A stretch of DNA of 59,072 bases, from positions 1-59,072 of the forward strand of contig JALQUR010000207.1 in the NCBI GenBank assembly GCA_023260695.1, written 5' to 3'. Under the pieces are notes generated by a model, which saw only the letters and a program-made list of their open reading frames with translations, did no database searches and was not told the DNA's origin. This document shows, one piece after another, positions 1-9,910 of the stretch; the first letter of the stretch is position 1; every line of letters starts with the position of its first letter. Made by a program: the position numbers and the translations under genes. The stretch comes from Planctomycetaceae bacterium. Its GTDB lineage: Bacteria > Planctomycetota > Planctomycetia > Planctomycetales > Planctomycetaceae.

Positions 1-2
1 GG

Positions 3-345
3 GCGATAGTGGATGGCACGGGTGGGTGTTGCGTTTTCGCAACATAGATCGGAACCTGCGCGGCATTCTCAGTCGTGGTCAACGCACCACGACTGGCACT
101 CCACCAACCGACGAAGTCACCAGCCGCCGATCCGGCGGACCGGCAACAGTGGGCACCGGCGAAAGTGGATGGCACCGGCGATAGTGGATGGCACGGGTGG
201 GTGTTGCGTTTTCGCAACATAGACCGGAACCTGCGCGGCATTCTCAGTCGTGGTCAACGCAGCACGACTGGCACTCCACCAATCGACGAAGTCACCAGCC
301 GCCGATCCGGCGGGACCGGCGAAAGTGGGTGGCACCGGGTTCCCG
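3..345. repeat. 175-bp tandem repeat, about two copies
   Basis: The stretch 3-177 is repeated nearly exactly at 178 to about 345, an offset of 175 bases that holds over most of the unit (for example 121 matches 296). The copies differ by scattered substitutions and a small indel near the end of the unit. I see no start codon with a ribosome-binding site and no recognisable protein in it, so I treat it as a non-coding repeat. The rest of the stretch up to the first gene (346-594) shows nothing else recognisable. Confidence 0.85.
152..189. repeat. 19-bp direct repeat nested in the 175-bp unit
   Basis: A 19-base unit starting GGCACCGGCG is present at 152-170 and again at 171-189 with one mismatch. 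A related form recurs near 319-340. It sits at the junction between the two 175-bp copies and could be the site at which the larger unit was duplicated; that origin is inference. Confidence 0.7.
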
Positions 346-594
346 ATGTTGCCCTTTGGAAACATTGACTGATCAAAACACTGGCTGAGAAAGGTCCGGG
401 GAAATGATTTGTGTCTCGCTCCCGGCCAGCCCTGAGCGCCAGTGGCCGAATCCATGAGCTGTTTTCCTCGGATTCACGCAGTACTTTTCACTGCATCTCA
501 TCCGTCACATGCACTTGACTCACTGCCACAACCTGAGAAGCTCCGAATCCCTGCTTTTTCTCGCGGTCCGATCCACCACATCCCGGAGCTCACC

Positions 595-6145: not shown

Positions 6146-6415
6146 ATGGCGATTAGTCAGGAACAAAAGCACGCGATCATGGCAGAATATGCCACGAAGC
6201 CGGGTGACACGGGATCACCGGACGTGCAGATAGCGGTGCTGACGGCAGAAATTCAGGCAATCACTGCTCACCTGAAGGATCATTCGCACGACTACAGCAG
6301 TCGTCGCGGGTTGCTGGCCAAGGTCAGTCGACGCCGACAACTGCTCGACTATGTCAAGCGTGGAAACTACCAGAAGTATCTGGATCTGATTGGTAAGCTT
6401 GGCATTCGTAAGTGA
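6146..6415 (+). CDS. rpsO: 30S ribosomal protein S15
   Basis: An 89-residue protein of standard S15 length. S15 binds 16S rRNA in the platform of the small subunit and helps nucleate its assembly. The family signature is clear: TGSPDVQIAVLT near residue 24, then HSHDYSSRRGL and the basic helix RRRQLLDYVKR, ending LGIRK. The ATG follows a purine-rich stretch (AGAAGG about ten bases upstream). It is followed on the same strand by pnp, the conserved rpsO-pnp order seen in many bacteria, but here the two are separated by 1.37 kb of structured non-coding sequence. Identification is secure. Confidence 0.98.
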   Translation: MAISQEQKHAIMAEYATKPGDTGSPDVQIAVLTAEIQAITAHLKDHSHDYSSRRGLLAKVSRRRQLLDYVKRGNYQKYLDLIGKLGIRK

Positions 6416-6639
6416 TCGAATCTGCGGGGCGTGCGGAGATTACTCTTCGCTCGCCCGCTGTGTTTTGTCGGCTGACGAATTCAACGAGCGGATAGCTCCT
6501 CTGAATCGAAGCAAAGAAATCGCCCGGCAGCATCCTGTCAGGTGCAATTTTGCCGGCCGGTCTCTGGTGAATGCAGCAAAGTGCTTGTGAAAGCAGCAGA
6601 GTGCTGCGGTGTTTTGGCGACAGTTTATGCTGTCGTGGC

Positions 6640-6681
6640 GGATACACCCAGGTAACGGTGTATCCAGGTAACGGTGTATCC
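6640..6681 (+). repeat. Alternative hairpin: one 5' arm, two competing 3' arms
   Basis: GGATACACC at 6640-6648 is perfectly complementary to GGTGTATCC at 6657-6665 and to the same nine bases again at 6673-6681, because a 16-base unit is tandemly duplicated. RNA could form either of two mutually exclusive stems. Confidence 0.6.
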
Positions 6682-7025
6682 AGGCGACGGTGTTCGCGCC
6701 AGCGGGGCCTGTTCTGGGAGGCCCTTGGTTTTCGGCTGAAACCTAATTGTGCCGAAAGCAATTGTTGTCAGGTAAGTGTTGATTGAAGTTCGTATCACAG
6801 GTTGTTCCGGGACGGGATAAGATCCCGGCAGTATTACAGAGAATTGTTGTATCTCTGTGTCTTGGTATTTGATGCCCCTTCCGCTCGGAAGGTTCTGTTC
6901 CGGTGTATTCCCGTCGCATTGGCGGTTTGTCAGGAGTGCACCAGAGCCACGATCGTATTCACCGTCTGCTGATTCCTGCGCAATCAGTTGTTCAGACCGG
7001 CAGGCAGCATCGTGGTGGTTCGTTT

Positions 7026-7058
7026 CTCTCTGAATGACTGACGCAGTGATTCAGAGAG
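7026..7058 (+). promoter_or_regulatory. 10-bp perfect stem in the pnp leader
   Basis: CTCTCTGAAT (7026-7035) pairs fully with ATTCAGAGAG (7049-7058) over a 13-base loop. It is the longest stem in the leader and about 720 bases upstream of the pnp start. It has no T-run. It is a candidate RNase III or protein-binding site by analogy with the E. coli pnp leader. Confidence 0.45.
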
Positions 7059-7343
7059 TGTAACGGCAGATACCGACCGAAGTCCGTCTGATCGGATTGC
7101 CGATGGGACGGTGCAGGAAGCAGGTGGTTTCGCAACAGCCACCGGAATCATGACTCACCGCCCTGGGTCTCGAGACTGGAACCTTTCCGTAGTGCGGAAA
7201 GAGCACACAGTTGAGCCCTCTGCCGGGCAGAACTTCAGCGTCGCATGTCGGTTGTGTAGCCGGAGGCGTTGTTTTTGCTGTCCATGTCTGTGTCTCTGAA
7301 ACAGCAAGTGCTGGCCGAGCGAAGACATCATTTCGGTTCACCC

Positions 7344-7370
7344 GTCGGAGTGCATCAGAATCACTCCGAC
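7344..7370 (+). promoter_or_regulatory. 9-bp perfect stem in the pnp leader
   Basis: GTCGGAGTG (7344-7352) pairs with CACTCCGAC (7362-7370) over a nine-base loop. It belongs to the same series of leader hairpins, with no T-run following. Confidence 0.45.
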
Positions 7371-7780
7371 TTCCGTTCCGAATCGCTGTCGTCAGACCGT
7401 CTGGCCGTTACGGAATGCATGGCAGAATTGTTGAGCAGAATTGTTGAATTGTCACGTAACGCTTTATGTCTGAGATTTTGAATTAAGTAGGTTTTGACTG
7501 CTGCCGCAGGTTCGTAGCGGATTGCCGCATCCTGTGGTGACTTTGAGTTGTCAGTTTTTGCAGACGATTTTCAGCAGGTACCACGTCTTCTCAGAAGACG
7601 CAGAGCCTGCAGGAATCTGGTCATTCTCAGCTGCCCCGCATGACTGCGGTCCGCAGCAGCAGAACGACTCGACGCTGCATGTTGTCTGATGTCGTGAAGT
7701 TACTGCACGAGCGAGATTTGCTCACGATCCCTGCCAGGCGAAGCAGTCGGTATGCCGGCTGGTCCGGGTTAGGAATCGTT

Positions 7781-9910
7781 GTGAGTAAAGTTATTGTTGA
7801 ACAGGAAATTGGTGGTCGTCCCCTGAGTATTGAAACGGGGGAACTCGCAAAGCAGGCTGCTGGTGCCGTCCTGATTAAGTTCGGAGAAACCAGCGTATTC
7901 ACGGCCACTGCCAGTGGCCCGTCTCGTCCGGGAACAGACTTCTTCCCCCTGACGGTGGACTACCGTGAGCGTCTTGCTGCAGCCGGCAAGTTCGCCGGGG
8001 GTTATCTGAAACGCGAAGGACGGCCCACGACTCGCGAAATCCTCACCTGCCGTCTGACAGACCGCCCGATTCGACCGCTGTTTCCCAAGGGATTCCGCGA
8101 TGAAGTTCAGGTCATGTCCAACGTCATGTCCTGCGACGGTGAAAACGACCCGGATGTGCTCAGCATTACTGCTGCCAGCGCTGCTCTGATGGTTTCCGGC
8201 CTGCCGTTTCGCGGTCCGATTGCTGCGGTCCGCGTTGGCATGATTGATGGTGAATTGATCCTGATGCCGACCGTGCAGCAGGTTGCCGAAAGCAGTCTGG
8301 ACCTGGTCGTCGCCGGCTCTGACACCGCCGTGCTGATGATCGAGGGTTTCGGAGATCAGATTCCCGAGCAGCAGATGGGTGATGCCATCATGTTTGCCCA
8401 CCAGCACATCAGAACCCTGTGCCAGTTGCAGCTGGACCTGATGAAGAAAGCTGGTATTGAGATGCCTGTTCTTCCGGAAGCCCCGGAGAATCCGCTCTAC
8501 GAACAGCTGCGAAGTGAAGCTTACGATGCTCTGACAGAAGCCAAGACCGCTGGACAGAAGCTGGAGCGTGGCGAAAAGGTTCGCGAGCTGAAGAAATCCC
8601 TGCTGGAAAAGTACTTCCCGGAAGATGCTGAAACCACAGCAGACGGCCTCACTCGAGCGCAGTTCAGCAATGCCTTCCACGATCTGGAAGAACGTGTTGT
8701 TCGCGATCAGATTCTGAAAGGCCGTCGCATCGACGGACGTGCAACCACTGATCTGCGAGCAGTCAGTTCCACCGTGGGAGTACTGCCACGCGTGCACGGG
8801 TCTGCCACGTTTACTCGCGGTGAAACTCAGGCGCTGGTGACAACCACCCTTGGTTCAACCCGTGATCAGCAGAAATCTGACGGTCTGTTTGGTGAAGAGT
8901 CTGCACGATTCATGCTGCACTACTACTTCCCTCCGTTCTCTGTTGGTGAGTGCCGGCCTGTCCGCGGTCCGGGACGGCGTGAAATCGGGCATGGCTGTCT
9001 GGCAGAACGATCTGTTGCTCCGGTCATTCCGGCAGCAGAAAAATTCCCGTACACCATCCGACTGATCTCAGACATTCTGGAATCGAACGGCAGCAGTTCA
9101 ATGGCATCGGTCTGCGGTGCGACTCTGGCCCTCATGGATGCCGGTGTCCCGATTACTCAGCCAGTCGCCGGTATCAGCATCGGCCTGGTCTGTGAAGGCA
9201 ATGAGTTCACACTGCTCACAGATATCATGGGTGACGAAGACCACTTCGGAGATATGGACTTCAAGGTGGCAGGTACAGGTCGCGGGGTAACAGGGATTCA
9301 GCTGGATCTGAAGATCCCGGGGATTTCTGAAGAGATCATCCGCGCCACCCTGGATCAGGCACTGCAGGCTCGCAAGGATCTGCTCCGAAATATGCTCACC
9401 ACGATTCGTCGTCCACGAGCAGAAGTTTCCGAAACAGCTCCGAAGCTTGTTCAGACGAAGATCAACCCGGAAAAAATCGGACTGCTCATCGGTCCCGGTG
9501 GCAAGACCATTCGTGCCATCCAGGAAGAATCCGGAGCAACCATCGATATCGCCGAGGACGGCTCGGTCACCATCTCAGCTGCAAATGGAGCGTCAGCAGA
9601 TGCGGCTCTGGCTCGCATTGAAGCACTTTGCGAAGAGATTCAGCCCGGACGCATCTACATGGGCAAAGTGACATCCATCAAGGACTTCGGAGCATTCATC
9701 GAAATCGCTCCGGGCAAGGATGGGCTCTGCCACATCAGCGAATTGTCCGATGGCTTCGTCAAGAATGTGCACGACGTCTGCAAGATCGGCGATACATTCG
9801 AAGTGAAGGTCATCGCAGTCGATGACCAGAACCGTGTCAAGCTCTCCCGCAAGGCTGTTCTGGCCGCGGAAGCCGACGACGAAGATGCTGAAGAAGGCGA
9901 CGACGAATAA
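7781..9910 (+). CDS. pnp: Polyribonucleotide nucleotidyltransferase (PNPase)
   Basis: A 709-residue phosphorolytic 3'-5' exoribonuclease, the usual length for the family, acting in mRNA decay. The GTG at 7781 is preferred because AGGA lies six bases upstream and the protein then starts like other PNPases (VSKVIVEQEIGG); the frame is open back to 7640 but that extension is not family-like. Two RNase PH core domains are separated by a helical domain. The first core includes DRPIRPLFPKGF and the second has GRRIDGRATTDLRAV and TRGETQALVTTTLGS. A KH domain follows (GLLIGPGGKTIR, about residue 562), then an S1 domain (about 622-693, GKVTSIKDFGAFIEI) and an acidic tail. It lies downstream of rpsO and ends at an intrinsic terminator, so it is probably the last gene of that unit. 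Confidence 0.97.
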   Translation: MSKVIVEQEIGGRPLSIETGELAKQAAGAVLIKFGETSVFTATASGPSRPGTDFFPLTVDYRERLAAAGKFAGGYLKREGRPTTREILTCRLTDRPIRPLFPKGFRDEVQVMSNVMSCDGENDPDVLSITAASAALMVSGLPFRGPIAAVRVGMIDGELILMPTVQQVAESSLDLVVAGSDTAVLMIEGFGDQIPEQQMGDAIMFAHQHIRTLCQLQLDLMKKAGIEMPVLPEAPENPLYEQLRSEAYDALTEAKTAGQKLERGEKVRELKKSLLEKYFPEDAETTADGLTRAQFSNAFHDLEERVVRDQILKGRRIDGRATTDLRAVSSTVGVLPRVHGSATFTRGETQALVTTTLGSTRDQQKSDGLFGEESARFMLHYYFPPFSVGECRPVRGPGRREIGHGCLAERSVAPVIPAAEKFPYTIRLISDILESNGSSSMASVCGATLALMDAGVPITQPVAGISIGLVCEGNEFTLLTDIMGDEDHFGDMDFKVAGTGRGVTGIQLDLKIPGISEEIIRATLDQALQARKDLLRNMLTTIRRPRAEVSETAPKLVQTKINPEKIGLLIGPGGKTIRAIQEESGATIDIAEDGSVTISAANGASADAALARIEALCEEIQPGRIYMGKVTSIKDFGAFIEIAPGKDGLCHISELSDGFVKNVHDVCKIGDTFEVKVIAVDDQNRVKLSRKAVLAAEADDEDAEEGDDE

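Follow-up and report, generated by a model that had tools for sequence, protein, structure and literature searches.

The closest described counterparts of the locus studied here lie at the same gene border in other bacteria. In Escherichia coli and Streptomyces coelicolor, RNase III cleaves a hairpin in the rpsO–pnp intergenic region, which destabilises the pnp mRNA as part of the autoregulation of polynucleotide phosphorylase (PNPase) (PMC10126417; PMC8708148), and PMC3997798 cites a paper whose title states that PNPase degrades a double-stranded structure of its own leader. The details of the E. coli leader used for comparison are drawn from reviews. In Actinomycetales, a conserved structured cis-regulatory RNA named for pnp, i.e. 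Actino-pnp (RF01688), is represented by a 63-position model (PMC2864571). Our literature search, which covered open-licence papers, turned up none that describes a pnp leader in planctomycetes.

The window, i.e. the whole 59,072-nt stretch of DNA that was analysed, is part of the planctomycete MAG G000 (contig C454), and the comparisons with its relatives rest on MAG assemblies. The original prediction that rpsO and pnp lie more than 1 kb apart here is borne out by a spacer of 1,365 nt between the end of rpsO (6415) and the start of pnp (7781), the same spacer measuring 69 to 1,282 nt across 35 relatives. Across 246 kb of G000, no ORF-free stretch is longer than one piece of this spacer, 6762–7639. 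rpsO homologues are located 5' of pnp in all relatives in which the region is present, and the PNPase encoded in the window shares 54–97% identity with its homologues in relatives. Sequence comparison places the conservation in the final 290 nt of the spacer (7491–7780) and not in the perfect hairpins that had been counted, most of which are located in its fast-evolving part. The suggestion of a structured leader controlling PNPase thus fits these 3' 290 nt but not those hairpins. We consider it reasonably probable that these 290 nt are a cis-acting RNA leader of pnp with a stem formed by two arms, A and B, mediating PNPase autoregulation of the RNase III type by analogy with E. coli and Streptomyces. 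The features of the region are as follows:

6146–6415, + strand: ORF, rpsO (ribosomal protein S15, 89 aa)
6424–6467, + strand: terminator-like hairpin (stem 6424–6458) with the tail TGTGTTTTG, predicted fold −22.3 kcal/mol, adjoining rpsO
6468–7490, + strand: expanded, hairpin-rich, fast-evolving segment, 11 perfect stems compared to 2.25 expected upstream of arm A
7494–7566, + strand: arm A, nearly invariant 5' arm of the predicted leader stem, 36 invariant columns in 30 genomes
7503–7538, + strand: predicted alternative local fold in arm A, GCC.CAGG/CCUG.GGU around GCGG-AUUG-CCGC, canonical in all sequences
7567–7672, + strand: variable linker and apex of the predicted stem, unalignable between relatives, about 30–220 nt
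7673–7750, + strand: arm B, 3' arm of the predicted leader stem, 60 bp with arm A in the window
7755–7767, + strand: small CCGG...CCGG hairpin 5' of the Shine-Dalgarno motif, CCGG/CCGG kept in all leaders
7771–7774, + strand: Shine-Dalgarno-like AGGA, assigned from the sequence, the motif preceding GTG in most relatives
7781–9910, + strand: ORF, pnp (polynucleotide phosphorylase), GTG start

Alignment of the three closest spacers reveals arms A and B as two near-identical islands amid unalignable sequence, and across the relatives the conservation of arm A is far above that of arm B. A search of 170 family genomes finds the core of arm A in 30 of them, always as a single copy, and a reversed control of the core has no match. 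A covariance model adds three more genomes and a fifth genus, resulting in 33 genomes of five genera with one arm A each, MAGs of Fuerstiella and Planctomycetaceae among them. Wherever the neighbouring genes are visible, arm A lies between rpsO and pnp, and the sole genome of the five genera without arm A has no detectable pnp in its assembly, which is 66% complete. In a comparison with 31 other PNPases, those of the genomes carrying the element group into a single clade (support 100/100), which points to a single origin of the element. A wider spread of arm A was rejected: matches in other genera are weak, G166 and G044 having theirs at places other than pnp, 294 genomes of the phylum contain no convincing match, and pattern matches in Nitratireductor and in a Desulfuromonadales MAG are at chance level for 20 specified bases.

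In the window, 60 pairs are predicted to join 7494–7566 to 7673–7750 in an imperfect stem, within which UGUGGUGACUUUG at 7533–7545 pairs with UGAAGUUACUGCA at 7695–7707 as the core helix. Folding, which is a thermodynamic prediction, was applied to 32 leaders taken from arm A to the start codon; in 28 of them arm A and the arm B core are paired, although the linkers are unrelated and vary in length as well as content, and averaged over the 32 leaders most of arm A is collinearly paired with arm B. In the 12 column pairs of the core helix 96% of the cells are canonical, compared to 28–59% if the partner is slid by 1–4 positions, and two of these column pairs show three canonical pair types each and zero non-canonical ones. 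The energy of the A:B duplex is below that obtained with shuffled arm B in all 32 complete leaders (z −2.3 to −6.2). Arms of the same lineage fit each other better than arms of different lineages (double-centred −4.1 kcal/mol, p=0.00005 in a permutation that treats the groups as exchangeable although they are related), whereas the same coevolution test is null on three scrambled controls. Regarding the covariation proposed as a check in the original prediction, the arms coevolve across lineages, but no single pair is significant if covariation per base pair is compared to a tree-based null; the support for coevolution of the aligned arms stands at the level of the arms and not of single base pairs. 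The duplex is predicted at −64 kcal/mol for the sense strand and at −43 kcal/mol for the antisense strand, and this advantage of about 20 kcal/mol suggests the sense RNA as the likely pairing molecule. The long imperfect A:B stem is therefore a well supported structural model, in which comparison and folding place a sense-strand stem with its end about 20 nt 5' of the Shine-Dalgarno motif. Mimicry of 16S rRNA helix 23, prompted by CAGGUUCGUAGCGG, was examined separately and rejected, the match being no better than shuffles.

The strong conservation of arm A could also reflect a site in DNA, such as a pnp promoter or a binding site for a regulator, in which case the complementarity to arm B would be incidental. 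Arm A starts with TTGACTGC, and as little as about 90 nt of spacer may precede it, which requires a promoter to be near. We regard this explanation as highly improbable, since the arms coevolve while their scrambled controls do not, the pairing is strand-specific and tolerates G-U, and the only sigma-70-like site of the spacer is found on the − strand and at chance level. The conservation of arm A goes beyond what pairing with arm B alone requires, which counts against the autoregulatory reading. Within arm A a local fold can be drawn that excludes the long stem and in which every pair is canonical in all sequences; together with the conservation of A far above that of B, this suggests a second role for A. 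Arm A might thus act as a bistable switch, folding locally (GCCGCAGG/CCUGNGGY around GCGG-AUUG-CCGC) and later being captured by arm B, with a ligand or protein that binds the local fold, possibly S15, PNPase itself or a metabolite, setting pnp expression. The 3' strand of A is common to the two mutually exclusive helices, both of which are compatible with all or nearly all sequences, the local one being almost invariant, and the local fold is preferred over the long stem in 5 of the 32 predicted ensembles. Its mean cost relative to the best fold, however, is 4.4 kcal/mol, compared to 0.6 kcal/mol for the long-range helix, arm A alone folds little better than its shuffles (mean z −0.7), and the local helix shows nearly no variation by which covariation could be assessed, so that we judge a switch of this kind to be unlikely. 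Its most elaborate form, a clade-specific bistable RNA in which a near-invariant domain of about 75 nt alternates between a factor-binding local fold and capture into a roughly 60-bp RNase III substrate, and which would be a PNPase-sensing switch with an origin independent of the E. coli and actinobacterial leaders, is likewise a tentative idea that we hold to be rather doubtful.

A further reading assigns function to the upstream segment (6468–7490), either as a non-coding RNA or as a structured barrier separating the decay of rpsO and pnp. An exceptional density of inverted repeats had been claimed for the spacer, and this claim stands at about four times the expectation: with a perfect stem defined as at least 6 bp with a loop of 3–12 nt, the whole spacer contains 12, two of them nested at one place, compared to 2.8 +/- 1.6 in dinucleotide shuffles (0/200). 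The piece 6762–7639 has 9.1 stems per kb, whereas the other ORF-free stretches of the genomic background (246 kb, 21 contigs of G000) have 17 compared to 15.8 expected, i.e. 2.2 per kb and no excess. Since no shuffle matches the spacer and the other ORF-free stretches show no such excess, we regard the excess as real. It recurs upstream of arm A in two relatives (6 compared to 1.8 in L081, 7 compared to 2.2 in L002), which favours this reading, as does the number of pairs in which both sides have changed while pairing is kept, counted across the entire spacer of the window and L002, 33 compared to a site-shuffled mean of 18 and a maximum of 32 in 500, although this count takes in the leader and poorly aligned stretches. 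The proposed comparison of folding with shuffled sequence also came out in the expected direction, the energy of 6416–7400 lying far below that of shuffles on the + strand (z −5.8) as well as on the − strand (z −7.5; 20 shuffles each). That the antisense strand folds at least equally well fits inverted repeats made by mutation at the DNA level as well as it fits a selected RNA, and thereby speaks against the reading. Moreover, the segment is missing in most genomes retaining arms A and B, where the spacer 5' of arm A is about 90–250 nt (1,091 nt in the window), and it is alignable to one (G002) of 20 relatives searched, over 6800–7374 with 78% identity. The single hairpins are not maintained: in seven aligned perfect hairpins of the window and L002, 3 of 13 changed pairs are still canonical. 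The perfect hairpins at 6590–7400 were thus rejected as a conserved element, their stems being poorly kept even in this nearest relative, and by this comparison they are lineage-specific and poorly conserved. A dispersed repeat or mobile element was rejected as well, since the 5' segment has no convincing further copy elsewhere in the genome. The hairpin excess is no fluke, but we consider it improbable that the upstream segment is the functional part.

Several observations on repeats and hairpins are recorded alongside. The spacer 5' of arm A is expanded to 0.7–1.1 kb in several g1 genomes (window 6416–7490; L031, L033, L036, L037), with sequences that are unalignable between subclades. At 6648–6695 of the window, the 16-nt unit CCAGGTAACGGTGTAT occurs three times in tandem, the third copy being 75% identical, and its copies also form a 9-bp hairpin at 6640–6665. 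Just 5' of arm A, at 7422–7447, the 13-mer GCAGAATTGTTGA occurs twice in tandem without a mismatch, a related 13-mer, AGAATTGTTGTAT, being located at 6840–6852. In L163 (g62), overlapping perfect hairpins occur 5' of arm A at spacer nt 59–140, five of them within 80 nt. Elsewhere, the first 500 bases of the window (1–500) contain four perfect stems of at least 7 bp, exceeding every other 500-base bin of the window.

At the 5' end of the spacer, an imperfect 35-nt hairpin (6424–6458) is followed by TGTGTTTTG, which corrects the original prediction that no T-run follows the stems, and of 31 genomes of the clade 28 have a hairpin with a T-rich tail directly 3' of rpsO. In relatives (L065–L094), its position and a GGCGT(C/T)GC...GC(A/G)ACGCC-like stem are kept across genera while the inner bases vary, and this hairpin looks like a good test case for covariation. 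As rpsO has its own terminator-like hairpin, pnp would be expressed via read-through or from a promoter within the spacer. The rpsO–pnp layout of E. coli likewise includes a terminator after rpsO.

At the 3' end, the GTG start of pnp is found at the same place in 32 of 32 leaders. Some lineages have C-G, U-A or A-U as the inner pair of the small CCGG hairpin; others, among them that of the window, have a mismatch there. A consistent sequestration of the ribosome site was rejected, since its accessibility is not consistently altered across the predicted leader ensembles, which is a further point against the autoregulatory reading. In most g26 and g62 genomes (L068–L075, L161–L163), the last 60 nt before pnp contain a GCGATCA...TGATCGTG complement that can pair over the GTG, and this exact pair is absent from the genus of the window.

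The best reading of the element is a planctomycete variant of a PNPase-autoregulatory leader, its mechanism being modelled on the known systems. In such a leader, the predicted long imperfect sense-strand stem of arms A and B closes the variable linker, and RNase III would cut this stem as in E. coli and Streptomyces. The A strand released by the cut would next be digested by PNPase, starting at the newly formed 3' end, so that the pnp message would lose the duplex at its 5' end and be open to decay or to a block of translation. High levels of PNPase would thereby lower its own synthesis. An RNase III (TIGR02191 above cut-off) is encoded in G000 (C522) and in five of six other genomes searched, the one without a match being 86% complete.

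The element thus has the location, the predicted long stem and the RNase III gene in common with the leaders of the E. coli and Streptomyces type, and, judged by its anatomy, it seems to work in the manner of the known pnp leaders. As in E. coli, the stem lies between rpsO and pnp in the pnp leader and RNase III is present (PMC10126417, PMC8708148), but the planctomycete arms are far apart with a variable apex of 30–220 nt, the predicted stem is longer (about 60 bp in the window), the 5' arm is nearly invariant, and cleavage of the stem is here predicted by analogy. The S. coelicolor hairpin is located at the same gene border and is an RNase III substrate controlling the operon (PMC10126417); it differs in that a [4/4] internal loop is its cleavage site, in that its sequence is unrelated to the planctomycete element, and in that four promoters are known there while none is mapped in the planctomycete spacer. 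Actino-pnp is similar in being a structured cis-regulatory RNA associated with pnp and differs in its distribution and its 63-position model. It was rejected as an identity of the element, having no match in the window and, in a search of 11 genomes, none at the pnp leader; in these genomes no match exceeds the cut-off, none lies in G000, and two weak ones are on contigs other than that of pnp. No family of Rfam 15 reaches its gathering score in the window, and none matches 7380–7790 at E up to 5, which places the element outside the described RNA families in this library. With its arms split by a long unalignable apex, such an element can escape window-based RNA searches.

If our reading as an autoregulatory leader is true, the Planctomycetota would join the bacteria in which PNPase is under feedback control via a double-stranded rpsO–pnp leader, though with a different RNA, suggesting that the same regulatory logic evolved repeatedly and independently at one gene border. 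It would also provide a sharply defined and testable RNA in a phylum in which RNA regulation is little studied.
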